In this document: positions 1,542 through 35,040 of the stretch, one piece after another
Position numbering within the stretch: the first letter of the stretch is position 1
Layout: every line of letters begins with the position of its first letter
From: Rhodospirillales bacterium
GTDB lineage: Bacteria > Pseudomonadota > Alphaproteobacteria > Geminicoccales > Geminicoccaceae
DNA: 43,165 nt
Assembly: GCA_015490605.1 (NCBI GenBank)
Contig: WFXL01000150.1
Coordinates: 1 to 43,165, forward strand
Reading direction: 5' to 3'
Translations under genes and position numbers: made by a program
The notes under the pieces: model-generated
What the model was told of the DNA's origin: nothing
The model's input: the letters and a program-made list of their open reading frames with translations, nothing else
The model's database searches: none

Positions 1542-2182
1542 CAGCCCTCCGCCTCCACCAGCACCGCATTGACCGCCGCCGCTGCCAGCGCCGAGCCGCC
1601 GAAGCGGCCCGCGAGGGTGAGGTAGACCAGCCCGTGGGCGGCTGCCAGCTCCATGAGCGCCCGCTTGCTCTCCACCGCGCCGACGAAGCCCACGGGAAAG
1701 GCGAACACCACCGCCGGCCGCACGCCCTCCGCCAGCACCCGCTCCAGCAGGCGGAAGAGAGCGGTGGGGGCATTGCCCACCGCCACCACCGCCCCCTCGA
1801 GGGCCTTGCCCCAGTGCTCCACCGCCACCAGCGCGCGGGTCACCCGCCGCCGGGTGGCCTCGGCCACCACCCGTGGATGGTCGATGGTGCACACCACCCG
1901 ATTGGCGGCGGGCAGGTGGCGGCGGAGGATGCCGGCGGCGGTGGCGTGGGTATCGCACAGGAGCGGCGCGCCGGCAGCCAGCGCTCGGCGGGCGGCGGCG
2001 GCGGGATCGCCGCGATGGCGCAGGTCCTGGACGATCGCCGGAAGGCCGCAGGCATGGACCAGCCGCAGGGCAAAGGGGCGGAGCTCGGGGGCGAGCTCGA
2101 CCCCCTCCAGGGCGGCACGCACCCGCTCGAACGAGAGCCGGTAGATGGCGGCGGGATCACGCAGATAGAAGAGGCCGCTCAC
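1541..2182 (-). CDS. cobH: Precorrin-8X methylmutase
   Basis: CobH/CbiC moves the C11 methyl group of precorrin-8X to C12, giving hydrogenobyrinic acid (or the cobalt form). It has 213 residues, the usual size. Recognisable stretches are the N-terminal YLRDPAAIYRLSFERVRA, the central LLCDTHATAAGI and the glycine-rich VAVGNAPTALFRLLE followed by FPVGFVGAVESKRAL, all typical of the family. The start is GTG and overlaps the cbiX stop (GTGA); the stop overlaps the cobL start. It therefore sits in the middle of a tightly coupled cbiX-cobH-cobL-cobI unit. Confidence 0.95.
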   Translation of the reverse strand: MSGLFYLRDPAAIYRLSFERVRAALEGVELAPELRPFALRLVHACGLPAIVQDLRHRGDPAAAARRALAAGAPLLCDTHATAAGILRRHLPAANRVVCTIDHPRVVAEATRRRVTRALVAVEHWGKALEGAVVAVGNAPTALFRLLERVLAEGVRPAVVFAFPVGFVGAVESKRALMELAAAHGLVYLTLAGRFGGSALAAAAVNAVLVEAEG

Positions 2183-3189
2183 GGTCCGCCGTCGCGAAAG
2201 GCCCGCTCCGCCACCGCCAGCGCCCGCGCCTGGGGGTGCGGGCCGCGGGTGTGGTGGAGGTGCGGATGGGGATGGTCGTGGGCGTGGTGGGCATGATCGT
2301 GGTGGTGGCCGTCGGCGTCGGTGCCGATGCCTTCCACATGGTGGTGGTGGCTCTGCTGGGGGGTGCCCACGTCCGCCTCATAGCCGAGGATGCGCTCGCG
2401 ATACTTGCACAGGGCGCAGTTCATGGCGGTATCGCCCGCGAGGATGCCGCGGATGCGGCGGACAAAGGTGTCGATCACCCCGGGGTGGTGGGCGAGATAG
2501 CCGGCCCTGATGAAGCGCACGGCGGGATGGCGCGCTGCCACTTGGTCGGCGGCGGCATAGATGCGCCGCACCAGCACGCCGGTAAACAGGAACCAGGGGA
2601 ACACCACCACCTGGCGGAAGCCGAGGCGGGCGATGCGGTCGAGGGCGATGTGGGTGCGCGGGTGGGCGACACCGGAATAGGCCACTTCCGCATGCTGAAA
2701 ACCGAGGCCCTCCCACAGCAGCCGGCAGACCTTGGCGACATTGGCGTTGGCATCGGCATCGGAGGTGCCGCGGCCCACCACCACCAGCGCCGTCTCCTCC
2801 GGCGGCACGGGCTCGTCCGCTGTCTCAAGGGCCGTGCGGATGCGATCGCGAGCCGCCTCCAGCAGCCGCGGGTCGATGCCGAGCTCGCGCGCCATCCGCA
2901 CTTCGAGCCCGTGCTCGTGGGCATAGCGGTTGAGCACCGAGGGCACGTCATTCTTGACGTGGCCGGCGGCGAACAGCATGGCGGGAAGGGCGAGGATGCG
3001 CCGCACCCCCTTTGCCCGCAGCCGATCGAGCCCCTCGCGCAGGGTCGGGCGGGCGAATTCGAGATAGCCCATGGCCACCGGCCAGTCGGGAAAGTGCGGC
3101 TCAAGCCGGGCTACCAGCTCGGCGAATTCCGCGCAGGCCTCGGGATCGCGGCTGCCATGGCCGCAGATCATCACGCCGGTCTCAGACAC
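2179..3189 (-). CDS. cbiX: Sirohydrochlorin cobaltochelatase, long form with His-rich tail
   Basis: CbiX inserts cobalt into sirohydrochlorin, the entry to the early-cobalt branch of corrin synthesis. The 336-residue protein has two chelatase repeats: the first carries GHGS with His11 and AGHVKNDVP with His77, the metal-binding histidines; the second (VVVGRGTSDADANANV) has lost the His of the GHGS motif. About residue 255 there is MNCALC, the MxCxxC motif reported to hold an Fe-S cluster in long CbiX proteins. A tail with many histidines (runs of HHHH and HxH) follows, probably for cobalt storage or delivery. The start is GTG with GAGGGAG upstream. It is the first gene of the cobalamin run here; the 71 bases before it look too short for a B12 riboswitch. 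Confidence 0.92.
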   Translation of the reverse strand: MSETGVMICGHGSRDPEACAEFAELVARLEPHFPDWPVAMGYLEFARPTLREGLDRLRAKGVRRILALPAMLFAAGHVKNDVPSVLNRYAHEHGLEVRMARELGIDPRLLEAARDRIRTALETADEPVPPEETALVVVGRGTSDADANANVAKVCRLLWEGLGFQHAEVAYSGVAHPRTHIALDRIARLGFRQVVVFPWFLFTGVLVRRIYAAADQVAARHPAVRFIRAGYLAHHPGVIDTFVRRIRGILAGDTAMNCALCKYRERILGYEADVGTPQQSHHHHVEGIGTDADGHHHDHAHHAHDHPHPHLHHTRGPHPQARALAVAERAFRDGGP

Positions 3190-3260: not shown

Positions 3261-3686
3261 TCAGACCGCGAGCGGCACCAGGCCGGCCACCACCAGATAG
3301 CGGAGGCCCTTGCCGAGGGCGACCAGCGGCAGGAAGAGCCAGAGCGGCGTGCGGAACAGGCCCGCCACCAGGGTCAGCGGATCTCCCACCAGCGGCAGCC
3401 AGCTCAGCAGCAGCGCCGGCGTGCCGAAGCGGCGAAAGAGGCGCTCGGCTTGGGCATAGCGCTTGGGGTCCAGCGGAAAGCGGCGGTGGTGGCGCAGCGC
3501 CGCGAGCCCTCGGCCGATGGCCCAGTTCACCAGCGCGCCGAGGGTGTTGCCCAGGGTCGCCGCCGCCACCAGCGGGCCGAGGCGCTCGGGCGCTAGCCAC
3601 ACCGCCCCCGCCAGCACCGCCTCGCTGGAGAAGGGCAGGATGGTGGCGGCGAGAAAGGCGGAGAGAAAGACCGCCGCCAGCGACAC
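3261..3686 (-). CDS. YqaA/DedA-like small membrane protein (VTT domain)
   Basis: This is a 141-residue inner-membrane protein of the YqaA branch of the DedA/VTT superfamily. It has about three hydrophobic segments; FSSEAVLAGAVW near residue 20, the glycine-containing GNTLGALVNWAIGRG, and a central LLLSWLPLVGDPLTLVAGL match the family pattern, including the conserved GDP. Members are thought to affect lipid scrambling or membrane homeostasis, but the role of YqaA itself is not established. The start is GTG, only three bases after the DUF302 stop, so it is the last gene of the cytochrome c-DUF302-YqaA unit and is probably transcribed from the CueR-like promoter at 4551-4581. Confidence 0.8.
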   Translation of the reverse strand: MSLAAVFLSAFLAATILPFSSEAVLAGAVWLAPERLGPLVAAATLGNTLGALVNWAIGRGLAALRHHRRFPLDPKRYAQAERLFRRFGTPALLLSWLPLVGDPLTLVAGLFRTPLWLFLPLVALGKGLRYLVVAGLVPLAV

Positions 3687-3689
3687 GGA

Positions 3690-4079
3690 TCAGACGGCGG
3701 CCACCACCCGCTGCAGGCGGGCCCTGACCTCGCGCGCCACCTCGTGCACCGTGGGATTGTCGATCATCTGCATGGCGGCCTCGGGATCCATGGCCGAGAC
3801 CTCCACCCGGCCATCCTCGAGCTCACGCACCACCACATTGCACGGCAGCAGCACGCCGATGTGGGGCTCGGCCTCCAGCACCCGATGCGCGAGCGGCGGG
3901 TTGCAGGCGCCGAGGATGAGATAGGGGCGCATCTCCAGCCCCAGCTTCTGCTTCAGGGTGGCCTTGACGTCGATCTCGGTAAGGACGCCGAAGCCCTCCT
4001 TGGCGAGCTCCTCGCGGGTGCGTGCCACCACCTCGTCAAAGCCGCGTCCGTCAATGATGCGGTCGATGCTGTAGCCCAT
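3690..4079 (-). CDS. DUF302 family protein
   Basis: A 129-residue soluble protein of the DUF302 family. Family features visible are the N-terminal [17 protein letters not shown], the centre [20 protein letters not shown] and [20 protein letters not shown]. The two conserved cysteines (GACNP and LPCNV) are in place and could bind a metal or be redox active, but the biochemical role of DUF302 is not settled. It starts at an ATG 16 bases after the cytochrome c stop and precedes the YqaA-like gene by three bases. Lying behind a CueR-type operator, it may take part in copper handling; that is inference from context. Confidence 0.85.
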
Positions 4080-4095: not shown

Positions 4096-4521
4096 TCAGC
4101 GGACGCCGTTGGCCCGCTGCAGTTCCCTCAGATAGGCGATCACCGCCGGAATGTCGTCGTCGGCGACCTCCGGTCGCGGCGGCATGTCGCCGAAATACCA
4201 GTGGTGCTGACGCACGCCGAAGCGAATCGCCGTGGCGAAGGCGAAATCCGCATGGTGGGCGGGGCGGTAGATGGGATGCACCAGCGGCGGCCCGCGATCA
4301 CTGCCACCGGCGGTGGCCCCGTGGCAGCTGGCGCACTGGGCCTCGAACACCGCCTTGCCCCGCTGCGCCAAAGGCGAGAGCTGGCGCGGCAGCGTCACCT
4401 CCACCAGCGGGGCTTCCTGCTGGCGGCTCCACCACCACCAGCCGGCTGCCACCACCACCACGCCCAGCAGCAGCCACCACGCACTGCGCCGACTGCCGGC
4501 GGCAGGGGACGGCTCGCTCAT
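4096..4521 (-). CDS. Membrane-anchored class I cytochrome c
   Basis: The 141-residue protein has a short N-terminus, one transmembrane anchor (about residues 14-31, rich in Val and Trp) and a periplasmic haem domain. Haem attachment is CASCHG at residues 63-68, with Cys63, Cys66 and His67. The likely sixth ligand is Met113 in FGDMPP. Between them lies a His-rich stretch ([12 protein letters not shown] and RQHHWYF) with several extra potential metal ligands. I chose the ATG at 4521, which follows GGAGGAGGGCAGGG, rather than the ORF-track start at 5607, which is read-through of other genes. It is the first gene of a three-gene unit (with DUF302 and YqaA) behind a CueR-like promoter, pointing to a job in copper stress, perhaps as an electron carrier for a copper oxidase not seen here. 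Confidence 0.88.
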
Positions 4522-4550
4522 CCCTGCCCTCCTCCACCGGTTGCCTCCCG

Positions 4551-4581
4551 CAGATGGACCTTCCCCCTGCGGGAAGGTCAA
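4551..4581 (-). promoter_or_regulatory. Predicted CueR-activated promoter of the cytochrome c unit
   Basis: On the minus strand the sequence reads TTGACC (-35), a 19-base spacer, then CATCTG (-10). A perfect dyad ACCTTCCC-GCAGG-GGGAAGGT lies across the -35 and spacer. An over-long 19-bp spacer with a central dyad is the hallmark of MerR-family activated promoters, and ACCTTCC...GGAAGGT is the known CueR box of E. coli copA. A second copy of this arrangement lies before copA in this window. The -35 contains the TGA stop of the upstream membrane-protein gene. The start codon of the cytochrome gene is 30 bases beyond the -10. The operator is seen directly; CueR binding is inferred. Confidence 0.75.
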
Positions 4582-30006: not shown

Positions 30007-31416
30007 ATGTCCGAACATGCGACGGCGGCCGCCCGGAAGGCGGCACTGGCCCGGCTGGAAGCGCGTTTTGGCGCGCGCGCCTCGCGCAATCCCACGGTCT
30101 TGGCCCAGCACGGTCGCGGCGAGGCATGGCATCCGGCAAGGCCGCCCGAGCTGGTGCTGTGGCCCGAGAGCACCGAGGAGGTGGCGGAAGTGCTGCGGGT
30201 ATGCCACGAGGCCCGGATCCCGGTGGTACCCTTCGGCACCGGCACCTCGCTCGAGGGACATGTGTTGGCCACCCGCGGCGGCGTGTGCCTCGACCTTTCG
30301 CGTATGGACCGGATTCTCGAGGTCCATGGGGAGGACATGGATGTGGTGGTGCAGCCGGGGGTCACCCGCCGAAGGCTGGAGGACCATCTGCGGGATACCG
30401 GCCTGTTTTTCCCGGTGGATCCCGGGGCCGATGCCAGTCTCGGCGGCATGGCCGCCACCCGCGCTACCGGCACCACCACCGTGCGCTATGGCGGCATGCG
30501 CGAGAATGTGCTGGCGCTGGAGGTGGTGCTGCCGGGCGGACGCATCCTCCGGACCGGCAATCGCGCGCGCAAGTCGGCCGCCGGCTACGACCTCACCCGC
30601 CTGTTCCTGGGCTCCGAGGGCACGCTCGGGGTCATCACCCGCCTCACCCTGCGCCTGTGGCCGCGGCCGGAACACATGGCGGCGGCGGTGTGCACCTTTC
30701 CCGAGGTGGGGGCGGCGGTGGATGCGGTGGTGGAGACCATCGGCAGTGGCATTCCAGTGGCGCGGATCGAGCTTCTGGACGAGCTGCAGATGCGCGCCTG
30801 CATCGACTTCGCCCGGCTCGAGGGGTTCGCATCGGCGCCGACGCTGTTCTACGAGTTCCATGGCAGCGAGGCGGCGGTGCGGGAGCAGGCGGAGCTCGCC
30901 GGTGAGATCGCCCGCGCCCATGGCGGCACCGCCTTCCGCTGGGCGACGCGGCCGGAGGAGATGCGCCGGCTGTGGCGCGCGCGCCATGATGCCTTCTATG
31001 CCGCCAAGGCGCTGCGGCCCGGGGCCGAGTCCTGGGTGACGGACGTGTGCGTGCCGGTCTCGCGGCTGCCGGACCAGATCCGCGCGGCCCAGGCGGACAT
31101 CGCCGCCTGCGGTATCCCCGCCACCATCGTCGGTCATGTGGGGGATGGCAATTTTCATCTGATCCTGCTGGTGGATCCGGACTCGCCGGAGGAATGGGCG
31201 CGGGTGCGGGCGCTCAATGAGCGGCTGGTGGCGCGGGCGCTGGCGGCGGAGGGCACCTGCACCGGCGAGCATGGCGTGGGGCTCGGCAAAAAGCGATGGC
31301 TTGGGCGGGAGCTGGGCGAGGAGGCGGTGGCGGCCATGGCGGCCATCAAGCGCGCCCTCGATCCGCACGGCATTATGAATCCCGATAAGGTCGTTCCCTA
31401 TATGTATGAGAACTGA
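30007..31416 (+). CDS. FAD-linked oxidase, D-lactate dehydrogenase (cytochrome) type
   Basis: A 469-residue VAO-family flavoprotein. FAD binding: VVPFGTGTSLEGHVLATRGG and VDPGADASLGGMAATRATGT; then YDLTRLFLGSEGTLGVIT, and C-terminal HVGDGNFHLILLVD with GEHGVGLGKKRWL, which matches D-lactate and glycolate oxidase relatives. It likely oxidises a D-2-hydroxy acid to the respiratory chain. I chose the ATG at 30007 with GGGGAG upstream; the track start 29902 lies before it. The C-terminus PDKVVPYMYEN is longer than the usual ending at NPGKVL and lies where the DNA becomes AT-rich. Confidence 0.92.
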   Translation: MSEHATAAARKAALARLEARFGARASRNPTVLAQHGRGEAWHPARPPELVLWPESTEEVAEVLRVCHEARIPVVPFGTGTSLEGHVLATRGGVCLDLSRMDRILEVHGEDMDVVVQPGVTRRRLEDHLRDTGLFFPVDPGADASLGGMAATRATGTTTVRYGGMRENVLALEVVLPGGRILRTGNRARKSAAGYDLTRLFLGSEGTLGVITRLTLRLWPRPEHMAAAVCTFPEVGAAVDAVVETIGSGIPVARIELLDELQMRACIDFARLEGFASAPTLFYEFHGSEAAVREQAELAGEIARAHGGTAFRWATRPEEMRRLWRARHDAFYAAKALRPGAESWVTDVCVPVSRLPDQIRAAQADIAACGIPATIVGHVGDGNFHLILLVDPDSPEEWARVRALNERLVARALAAEGTCTGEHGVGLGKKRWLGRELGEEAVAAMAAIKRALDPHGIMNPDKVVPYMYEN

Positions 31417-32133: not shown

Positions 32134-32553
32134 TCACGCCACCGCCCGCGGCTCGGCCGCTTCCTCCTCCGCCGCCAGATCCTCGAGGATCGGACAGTCG
32201 GGCCGGTCCTCCCCGTGACACTTCTCCGCCAGATGTTCCAGCGCCCGCTTCATCGCCTCGAGTTCGCGGATGCGCCGTTCGATCTCGCGGATGCGTGCCA
32301 GTGCCAGCCGCTTGACCTCGGCCGCCGAGCGCTGAGGGTCGAGGTAGAGGGCCAGCAGTTCACGGCAGTCCGCCACCGAGAACCCCAGCGCCCGGGCCCG
32401 CTGGACGAAGCGTAGCAGGTGGACGTCGCGCTCGCTGTAATCACGATAGCCGTTGTCCTTCCGCCCGCTCGGCCGCACCAGGCCGATCTCCTCGTAGTAG
32501 CGCAGCGTCTTCGCGGGCAGCCCCGCGCGCCGTGCCGCCTCGCCGATGTTCAT
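32134..32553 (-). CDS. cueR: MerR-family copper efflux regulator
   Basis: CueR senses Cu(I) and activates copA by untwisting its long-spacer promoter. The 139-residue protein has the MerR DNA-binding head (MNIGEAARRAGLPAKTLRYY, RKDNGYRDYSERDV) and the metal loop CHGEDRPDC with Cys112 and Cys120 at the same numbers as in E. coli CueR. Position 77, Ser in E. coli CueR, aligns with Ala here (DPQRSAAEV), with Ser at 76. ATG at 32553. The gene overlaps the copA 3' end by 113 bases in another frame and should be co-transcribed with it. Confidence 0.93.
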   Translation of the reverse strand: MNIGEAARRAGLPAKTLRYYEEIGLVRPSGRKDNGYRDYSERDVHLLRFVQRARALGFSVADCRELLALYLDPQRSAAEVKRLALARIREIERRIRELEAMKRALEHLAEKCHGEDRPDCPILEDLAAEEEAAEPRAVA

Positions 32554-34975
32554 GGCTCTCCTCCTCCTGTGGGATCTCCGGCCGCCAGCGCCGCAGCAGC
32601 AGCGCGTTGGTGACCACGCTCACGCTCGAGAATGCCATGGCGAAGGCCGCCACCGCCGGATCCAGCAGACCCGCGGAAGCAATGGGAATGCCGGTGACAT
32701 TGTAGATGAAGGCCCAGAACAGATTCTGCCGGATCTTGCGGCGGGTGCGGCGGGCGATGTCGAGGGCCGCCGGCACCAGCACCGGCCGCGGCCGCATGAG
32801 GGTGATGCCGGCGGTCTCGAGCGCCACATCGGTGCCCGAACCCATGGCGATGCCCACATCCGCCGCCGCCAGCGCCGGCGCGTCATTGACACCATCGCCC
32901 ACCATCGCCACCACCCGGCCCTCGCCCTGCAGCGCCACCACCCGCGCGGCCTTCTCCTCGGGCGGCACCGGCGCCAGCACCTCATCGATGCCGAGCCGGG
33001 CCGCTACCGCCTCGGCGGTGGCGCGATTGTCACCCGACATCATCACCACCTTGAGGCCCTCGGCCCGCAGCCGCCGCACCGCCTCGGCCGCATCCGGCCG
33101 CACCCGGTCGGCCAGGGCGATGAGGCCTGCCACCCGACCGTCCACCACCACCCAGGTGACGGTGGTGCCCGCCCGCTCGAGCTCATCCGCCCGGCGCTCG
33201 ACGGCGGGGTCCACCGAAAGACCGGAGGTGGCAAAGCCGGGTCGGCCGACGCGCACCCCGTGCCCCTCCACCTCGGCTTCGATGCCACGCCCGGGTACTG
33301 CCTGGAAGCGGCTCGGCGGCGTCAGGGCAAGGCCGCGCGCTTCGGCCGCCCGCACCATGGCGCGCCCGAGCGGATGTTCGCTGCGGAGCTGGGCGGAAGC
33401 CGCGAGCCGCAGCACCTCCTCCTCCGACGGGCCGAGGGGCACGATCTGGACCACATCTGGCCGGCCCTCGGTGAGGGTGCCGGTCTTGTCGAACACCACC
33501 GTATCGGCGGCGTGGGCGCGCTCCAGGGTTTCGATGTCCTTCACCAGGATGCCGGCGCGGGCGGCCGAGCCGGTCCCCGCCACCAGTGCGGCCGGCGTCG
33601 CCAGACCGAGGGCGCAGGGACAGGCGATCACCAGCACCGACACCGCCGCCACCAGCGCCTGTTCGAAGGTGCCGCCGGCCAGCAGCCAGCCGCCGAAGGT
33701 GAGGGCAGCGATCCCCACCACCACCGGCACGAACACCGCCGCAACCCGGTCCACCAGCTTCTGGATGGGCGCCTTGCCAGCCTGGGCCTGTTCCACCAGC
33801 CGGGCGATGCGGGCCAGGGTGGTATCGCGGCCCACCCGGGTCGCGCGCACCTCCACATAGCCGCTGCCGTTGACCGCGCCGGCGATCACCGTATCGCCCT
33901 CACCCCGGGCCACCGGCAGGCTCTCGCCGGTGACCAGCGACTCGTCGAACTCGCTCTCGCCCGCGAGGATCACGCCATCCACCGGCACCCGCTCGCCGGG
34001 GTAGACCAGCACCACATCGCCCACCCGCACCTCATCCACGGGCACCTCCACCTCTTGCCCGTCGCGGCGGATACGGGCGCGCTCGGGCCGCAGCTCCATC
34101 AGCCGGCGGATGGCCTCGGCGGCGCTGCGCTTGGCCCGCTCCTCAAGCCACTTGCCGATGCGGGTGACGGCGATGATGGCGGCGGAGGCCTCGAAGTAGA
34201 GCAGGCCCGCCGAGGCCGCGCCCAGATCCCATACCAGCCACAGGCTGTAGCCATAGGCGGCGGTGGTGCCGAGCGCGATCAGGAGGTCCATGTTGCCGCT
34301 CTTTGCCCGCAGCGCCTTCCAGGCCCCACGGTAGAAGCGCCAGCCGGCGATGAACTGGACCGGCGTGGCCAGCAGCACCTCCTGCAGGGGCGTCAGATGG
34401 AACGGCCAACCCACAAGGCGCGCCACCATCTGGGCCACCAGCGGCAGGGTCAGGATCACCGACCCCAGGGTCAACAGCGCGTCCATACGGCCGCTGCCGG
34501 CACGTTCCGGCGTCTCGTGCCGCGTCTCGCTCTGCAGATGGGCCTCATAGCCTGCGGCCTTGACCGCCTCGATCAGGGCCCGCGGCTCCACCGCACCCGC
34601 CACCACCTCCACATCCGCCCGCGCCAGCGCCAGATTGACCCGTGCCTCCAGCACGCCCGGGACCCGGCGCAGCGCCTGTTCGATGCGGCGCACGCAGGCG
34701 GCACAGCTCATACCCTCGATGGTGAGGGTGACGGTCTCGCGCGGCACGCCATAGCCGGTGCGCTCCACCGCCTGCACCACCTCCGCAAGCGAGCCCTCGG
34801 ACGCGAGCTCCACCCGTGCGCGCTCCAGCGCCAGGTCCACCTCGACCCCACGCACCCCCTCCAGCTTCTCGAGGGCCTTGCGGATGCGCGTCGCGCAGGC
34901 GGCGCAGCTCATCCCCTCCACCGGAAACGCCAGCTCCTGCCCGGCCTTGTCCATCGCACCGGCTGTCTCGGCCAT
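32441..34975 (-). CDS. copA: Cu(+)-exporting P1B-type ATPase
   Basis: CopA pumps Cu(I) out of the cytoplasm. The 844-residue protein has two N-terminal metal domains (EGMSCAACATR with Cys24 and Cys27, and a second GMSCAAC near residue 95), the membrane CPC motif in VLVIACPCALGLATPAAL, the phosphorylation site DKTGTLTEG, the HP motif SEHPLGRAMV and MVGDGVNDAPALAAADVGIA. I chose the ATG at 34975, preceded by GGAGGGG, over the longer track start. The C-terminus runs 37 codons into cueR: after RRWRPEIPQEEE it has a polar tail unlike other CopA, possibly because the original stop was lost. Expression is driven by the CueR promoter at 35010-35040. Confidence 0.96.
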   Translation of the reverse strand: MAETAGAMDKAGQELAFPVEGMSCAACATRIRKALEKLEGVRGVEVDLALERARVELASEGSLAEVVQAVERTGYGVPRETVTLTIEGMSCAACVRRIEQALRRVPGVLEARVNLALARADVEVVAGAVEPRALIEAVKAAGYEAHLQSETRHETPERAGSGRMDALLTLGSVILTLPLVAQMVARLVGWPFHLTPLQEVLLATPVQFIAGWRFYRGAWKALRAKSGNMDLLIALGTTAAYGYSLWLVWDLGAASAGLLYFEASAAIIAVTRIGKWLEERAKRSAAEAIRRLMELRPERARIRRDGQEVEVPVDEVRVGDVVLVYPGERVPVDGVILAGESEFDESLVTGESLPVARGEGDTVIAGAVNGSGYVEVRATRVGRDTTLARIARLVEQAQAGKAPIQKLVDRVAAVFVPVVVGIAALTFGGWLLAGGTFEQALVAAVSVLVIACPCALGLATPAALVAGTGSAARAGILVKDIETLERAHAADTVVFDKTGTLTEGRPDVVQIVPLGPSEEEVLRLAASAQLRSEHPLGRAMVRAAEARGLALTPPSRFQAVPGRGIEAEVEGHGVRVGRPGFATSGLSVDPAVERRADELERAGTTVTWVVVDGRVAGLIALADRVRPDAAEAVRRLRAEGLKVVMMSGDNRATAEAVAARLGIDEVLAPVPPEEKAARVVALQGEGRVVAMVGDGVNDAPALAAADVGIAMGSGTDVALETAGITLMRPRPVLVPAALDIARRTRRKIRQNLFWAFIYNVTGIPIASAGLLDPAVAAFAMAFSSVSVVTNALLLRRWRPEIPQEEESHEHRRGGTARGAAREDAALLRGDRPGAAERAEGQRLS

Positions 34976-35009: not shown

Positions 35010-35040
35010 CATCTGGACCCTCCAGCAGAGGGAAGGTCAA
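35010..35040 (-). promoter_or_regulatory. CueR-activated copA promoter
   Basis: On the minus strand: TTGACC (-35), 19-base spacer, CAGATG (-10), with the dyad ACCTTCCC-TCTGC-TGGAGGGT. It closely resembles the E. coli copA promoter (TTGACCTTCCCCTTGCTGG). The -10 lies about 34 bases before the copA ATG. The stop codon of the upstream ABC gene lies in the -35. Confidence 0.88.

Follow-up and report, generated by a model that had tools for sequence, protein, structure and literature searches.

A predicted CueR-activated promoter lies at positions 4551 to 4581 (minus strand) of the window, by which we mean the whole 43,165-nucleotide stretch of DNA analyzed here, and it would add an operon encoding a cytochrome c, a DUF302 protein and a YqaA-type VTT membrane protein, perhaps together with a CbiX-type chelatase, to the copper regulon of an alphaproteobacterium. 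Judged from its sequence features, we consider CueR control of this operon highly likely. The fuller reading, in which the operon is both controlled by CueR and serves copper handling, appears likely as well, if less secure.

A candidate CueR promoter before the cytochrome gene

The candidate promoter has a perfect counterpart before the same operon in another genome of the genus (G009). On the minus strand it is made up of a -35 box TTGACC (4581-4576) and a -10 region CATCTG (4556-4551) with a 19-bp spacer between them, its letters reading cgcTTGACCTTCCCGCAGGGGGAAGGTCCATCTGcgg...GGTGGAGGAGGGCAGGGATG. From 4581 the strand runs TTGACCTTCCCGCAGGGGGAAGGTCCATCTG, followed by a GGAGG-type ribosome site and the ATG of the cytochrome gene (4521-4519). 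The -35 box shares bases with the stop codon of the upstream open reading frame (TGA, 4580-4578). Within the 19-bp spacer lies a dyad at 4558-4578 that contains no mismatches. An earlier note had described TTGACC, the spacer and the dyad upstream of the cytochrome gene, and all three were found; the dyad occupies the same 21 bp, although the two 8-mers around a 5-bp center in which it had been presented are better written ACCTTCC-N7-GGAAGGT.

Scored against the oriented 16-letter motif TTGACCTTCC-N7-GGAAGG, the cytochrome site matches at 16/16 positions. The only other close match to the dyad in the window, at 35017-35037, contains one mismatch (15/16) and lies before copA in a CueR-type promoter of the same arrangement (35010-35040, minus strand; TTGACC, 19 bp, CAGATG), bearing out the resemblance that had been claimed between the two promoters. 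A Markov model trained on the window (69.5% G+C) predicts 0.005 sites of at least 15/16 per 43 kb, counting both strands. The copA gene (32441-34975, minus strand, start read as ATG 34975) encodes a copper P1B-ATPase with two HMA stretches (TIGR01511, 601 bits against a cut-off of 397, and Pfam). Located 3' of it is cueR (32134-32553, minus strand), encoding a 139-residue Cu(I)-responsive regulator of the MerR family (TIGR02044, 169.6 bits against a cut-off of 147.4) that the ZntR, MerR and CadR models score below their cut-offs. If both frames are used in full, the end of copA and the start of cueR overlap by ~113 bp (32441-32553) in different frames. The metal loop of the CueR protein is CHGEDRPDC (Cys-x7-Cys) and its dimer helix, QRSAAEV, bears Ser in place of Cys, which we take to be consistent with a sensor of monovalent metal.

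By the E. coli rule the -10 hexamer of the cytochrome promoter is poor, CATCTG agreeing with TATAAT at 2/6 positions; it does agree with the consensus that copA genes of the lineage have in front of them. C26, A27 and T30 of the -10 region are common to thirteen promoters of the order that were chosen by eye and lie mostly before copA, and CATCTG can therefore be regarded as the lineage's own version of this element.

The same TTGACC box, 19-bp spacer and dyad, together with linkage of cueR to copA, are found in the Cue system (E. coli copA and cueO) and at alphaproteobacterial and rhizobial HmrR promoters, and a comparative study describes the CueR and HmrR signals and their spacer (PMC1526738). 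The promoter discussed here differs from these in its lineage-specific CATCTG and in its target, a cytochrome c-DUF302-VTT operon containing neither a pump nor a multicopper oxidase. As the earlier note held, these genes are not part of the classical Cue system, and the unit would represent an addition to the CueR regulon. It is very likely that the 4551-4581 element works as a promoter for CueR. Cu(I)-filled CueR would distort the DNA over the over-long 19-bp spacer, allowing RNA polymerase to use the promoter, as at copA in the same window.

The operon and its cytochrome

All four genes lie on the minus strand. The cytochrome gene (4096-4521; PF00034, 4.1e-15) encodes a monohaem cytochrome c of 141 residues, identified also by residues conserved in 68 relatives and by its predicted fold, with an N-terminal membrane anchor. 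It is followed after 16 bp by the DUF302 gene (3690-4079, 129 residues; PF03625, 2.7e-30, 104.5 bits against a cut-off of 23), after a further 3 bp by the gene for the YqaA-type VTT (DedA/SNARE-associated) membrane protein (3261-3686; PF09335, 2.4e-14, 54.3 bits against a cut-off of 33.9), and after 71 bp by the CbiX-type chelatase gene (2179-3189; PF01903, 1e-53), a possible read-through member of the operon. The domain matches confirmed the assignment of the first three genes that had been made from the letters.

The cytochrome has the CxxCH motif (63-67), the distal Met ligand (Met113) and the fold of a class I c-type cytochrome, the predicted model (mean pLDDT 87) placing an N-terminal helix at 11-34 ahead of the cytochrome domain. 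In addition to its haem ligands it contains HH at 89-90 and HHW at 106-108. Alignment with the 68 relatives revealed that H90, H106, H107, W108 and M113 are kept in 68/69 sequences, the single exception being a broken frame, and H89 in 65. Near-invariant non-haem histidines (HH...D and HHW) thus accompany CxxCH and Met across the family, as the remark on extra histidines in the earlier note had anticipated for this one protein. These histidines probably bind or contact copper; they could instead serve the structure of the haem pocket or the docking of a partner. The nearest PDB sequences, at low similarity, are cytochrome domains of CcoP and bc1. The nearest folds, modest matches with E above 0.001 and TM ~0.5, include cytochrome domains that accept electrons from quinoproteins or copper proteins, which may be taken as a weak hint of electron acceptance.

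Neither a signal peptide nor a membrane helix is evident in the sequence of the DUF302 protein. It matches the solved proteins TT1751 (1J3M) and APC35924 (1Q9U) over most of its length, and both of its cysteines (Cys59 and Cys80) align with cysteines there. Both are invariant in 14/14 sequences, as had been claimed; their proposed value as a sign of copper chemistry was rejected because they are conserved family-wide, including in DUF302 proteins of genomes in which no link to copper was apparent. In contrast to the solved proteins, a copper link for DUF302 comes only from this operon and its counterpart in genus g10, described below. We also rejected DUF302 as a general CueR target: when nine DUF302 loci from the class but not the genus were inspected, only one had nearby sites of at least 13/16, at a distance of ~1 kb, and in none of the nine did the 3.4 kb inspected contain the cytochrome. 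A link of either DUF302 or YncE to the copper response was not found in the literature searched, which is weak evidence given that few subscription journals were covered.

Conservation and other CueR-type sites

In G009 the 16/16 site is followed in the same order by the cytochrome (81-86% identity), DUF302 (92%), VTT (79%) and CbiX (83%) genes. The genus is represented by four genomes, and no such cytochrome was found in two of them (G007 and G008). Genus g10, which belongs to the same family, has a cytochrome of ~50% identity adjoining a DUF302 gene of ~75% identity (G016-G018). Behind this pair in G018 come a gene of the CMD family, a 14/16 site, a copper-type P-ATPase, a YncE protein and a second cytochrome, and it follows from this gene order that in g10 the cytochrome and DUF302 genes stay linked as part of a copper cluster. 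The CueR-type site of g10 thus lies downstream of the pair and before the copper ATPase; directly before the pair no good site was found in G016-G018, the best scoring 9-12/16. The pairing of DUF302 with the cytochrome is confined to these two genera of one family.

Members of the cytochrome family occur in 32/385 genomes of the class. We scanned 370 bp around 43 cytochrome starts. A site scoring 13/16 or better was present at 16 of them, compared to 23/2016 control windows (1.1%) from the same loci and 0.2% of shuffles; the control windows take in some genuine sites belonging to other copper genes. Site scores at the cytochrome starts were bimodal, and the 16 starts with a site represent 14 genomes and 8 GTDB families. 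The earlier note had made its prediction of CueR control hinge on whether relatives retain the dyad. Its retention in G009 and at these 16 starts lends support to that prediction at the level of sequence. Of 41 cytochrome loci, 31 had either a site scoring 14/16 or better or, inside the stretch, a core copper gene, meaning one for CueR (identity of 45% or more), for a Cu-ATPase or multicopper oxidase, or for CopB or CopC; this is a linkage count without a matched control. A different subfamily of cytochrome c, with the motif DTGHTWHH, is preceded by a 15/16 CueR-type site in G019 (L102:3025).

Among named plasmids, 162 records contain a relative of the cytochrome. Eight plasmid loci were opened (Ruegeria pomeroyi, Shinella, Phaeobacter inhibens, Paracoccus yeei, Bradyrhizobium BTAi1, Dinoroseobacter shibae, Indioceanicola and Roseovarius indicus), and all eight are copper islands with a multicopper oxidase, Cu-ATPase, CopB/C/D or YncE gene, and sometimes a VTT gene, beside the cytochrome. 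In contrast to the operon described here, no CueR-type site scoring 13/16 or better precedes the cytochrome in any of the eight, and other copper regulators therefore also seem to use it; in some roseobacter islands a two-component system adjoins the gene. VTT-domain genes are present in two roseobacter islands, one of them in a run (DUF6010-VTT-cation diffusion facilitator-DUF411) behind a CueR-type site with a CATCTG -10 region on the D. shibae plasmid pDSHI06 (L211:2866). It is very likely that this cytochrome belongs to the copper response and occurs widely, and its pairing with the promoter across many Alphaproteobacteria suggests an overlooked, widespread part of the handling of toxic copper.

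Scanning the 2.2-Mb assembly to which the window belongs (G000) for TTGACCTTCC-N7-GGNARG yielded four sites with 0-1 mismatches in promoter orientation: those of the cytochrome operon and copA, and two others, at C37:31116 and C134:7592. A fifth match was the cytochrome-operon dyad on the opposite strand. The C37 site (31116-31138; L056:9117) is perfect and precedes a coxB-coxA-cupredoxin operon for a CuA haem-copper oxidase (CuA motif of coxB, CLNYCGLGHAQM), whose orthologue in G008 has a 14/16 site. The C134 site (7592-7570; L057:7592) precedes a gene for a YncE-type beta-propeller with a Met/His-rich loop, and the YncE-type gene of G009 likewise lies behind a CueR-type site (C39:109615; L090:616). 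In other Alphaproteobacteria this propeller family adjoins copA. Across the order, many of the opened sites stand before ATPases of the copA type, and a single one stands before a copZ-like gene.

Proposed role in copper handling

The main product of the operon would be a membrane-anchored, periplasmic monohaem cytochrome whose histidines probably contact copper, and a copper-handling role for it is likely. Its most likely role would be to take electrons from periplasmic Cu(I), either directly or via a cupredoxin or multicopper oxidase, and to pass them to the respiratory chain, lowering periplasmic Cu(I) while CopA exports Cu(I) from the cytosol. We infer this specific electron step only tentatively, and place it somewhat short of an even chance. 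A sharper version, to which we give perhaps one chance among several, is that the cytochrome is a respiratory cuprous-oxidizing protein, with an invariant four-His Cu(I) site at the periplasmic face of the membrane and a haem that accepts the electron and hands it on to a terminal oxidase, which in this genome may be the CuA oxidase under CueR control. For this genome we rejected the idea that the cytochrome replaces an absent CueO: the genome has multicopper-oxidase domains, as do G008, G009 and all three g10 genomes, and a further Cu(I)-oxidizing route is therefore not required.

We also considered that CueR may control an ordinary respiratory carrier, one that replaces or supplements copper-damaged cytochromes and keeps respiration going under copper stress without direct copper chemistry. 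The class I fold and Met ligand fit such a carrier, as does the placement of the CuA-type oxidase operon behind CueR-type sites both here and in G008; moreover, a title cited by a review (PMC4600104) names c-type cytochrome assembly as a target of copper toxicity. However, the invariant paired histidines beyond the haem ligands, and the steady presence of multicopper oxidase, CopA and YncE genes nearby, point to copper itself, and we regard an ordinary carrier as possible but rather unlikely. Still less probable is a function in the assembly of copper enzymes, whereby the cytochrome would supply electrons that let copper or thiol chaperones load the CuA and CuB centers of oxidases when copper is plentiful. 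While the site before coxB-coxA-cupredoxin is consistent with that function, as are the DsbA-family genes that plasmid islands carry close to the cytochrome, most relatives are adjoined by detoxification genes rather than oxidase genes.

Recognition of the site by another MerR-family regulator, or its use as a repressor site, would make the unit answer a different signal. A second MerR-type gene does lie directly upstream of a multicopper oxidase in this genome (C134:11859-12245, in the region C134:10391-12335; L057). However, its product bears the dimer-helix Cys of the divalent type, whereas the CueR next to copA has Ser and passes TIGR02044; no site reaching 12/16 turned up near the operon of the second regulator itself, and the cytochrome site is nearly identical to that of copA. 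We consider this quite improbable. That the dyad is a chance or relict palindrome without a regulatory role might be argued from its absence directly before the cytochrome in G016-G018, but is very hard to reconcile with the minute expectation from the Markov model and with conservation in G009 and 8 families.

The notion of CueR-controlled cytochromes is not wholly new, since CueR sites before cytochrome genes were predicted by comparative genomics in three Vibrio species (Permina et al. 2006; PMC1526738). The prediction of CueR sites upstream of cytochrome genes is common to both cases. The Vibrio case differs in class, however, and the nearest characterized relatives reported for its proteins are cytochromes c552/c544; no DUF302 or VTT partner is reported in the text consulted. 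Neither the breadth of the association, nor the HHW family, nor the DUF302 and VTT partners were found in the literature searched.

If CueR control and the copper-handling role are right, many Alphaproteobacteria would have a respiratory-type redox protein in their CueR regulon, and a single sensor would therefore link copper tolerance to electron transport. For a family that bears no annotation beyond 'cytochrome c', this would supply a defined condition and testable residues, and DUF302, a domain of solved structures, would gain its first physiological context. Were the cuprous-oxidizing reading true, copper detoxification would be coupled to respiration, alongside the CueO-type multicopper oxidases.
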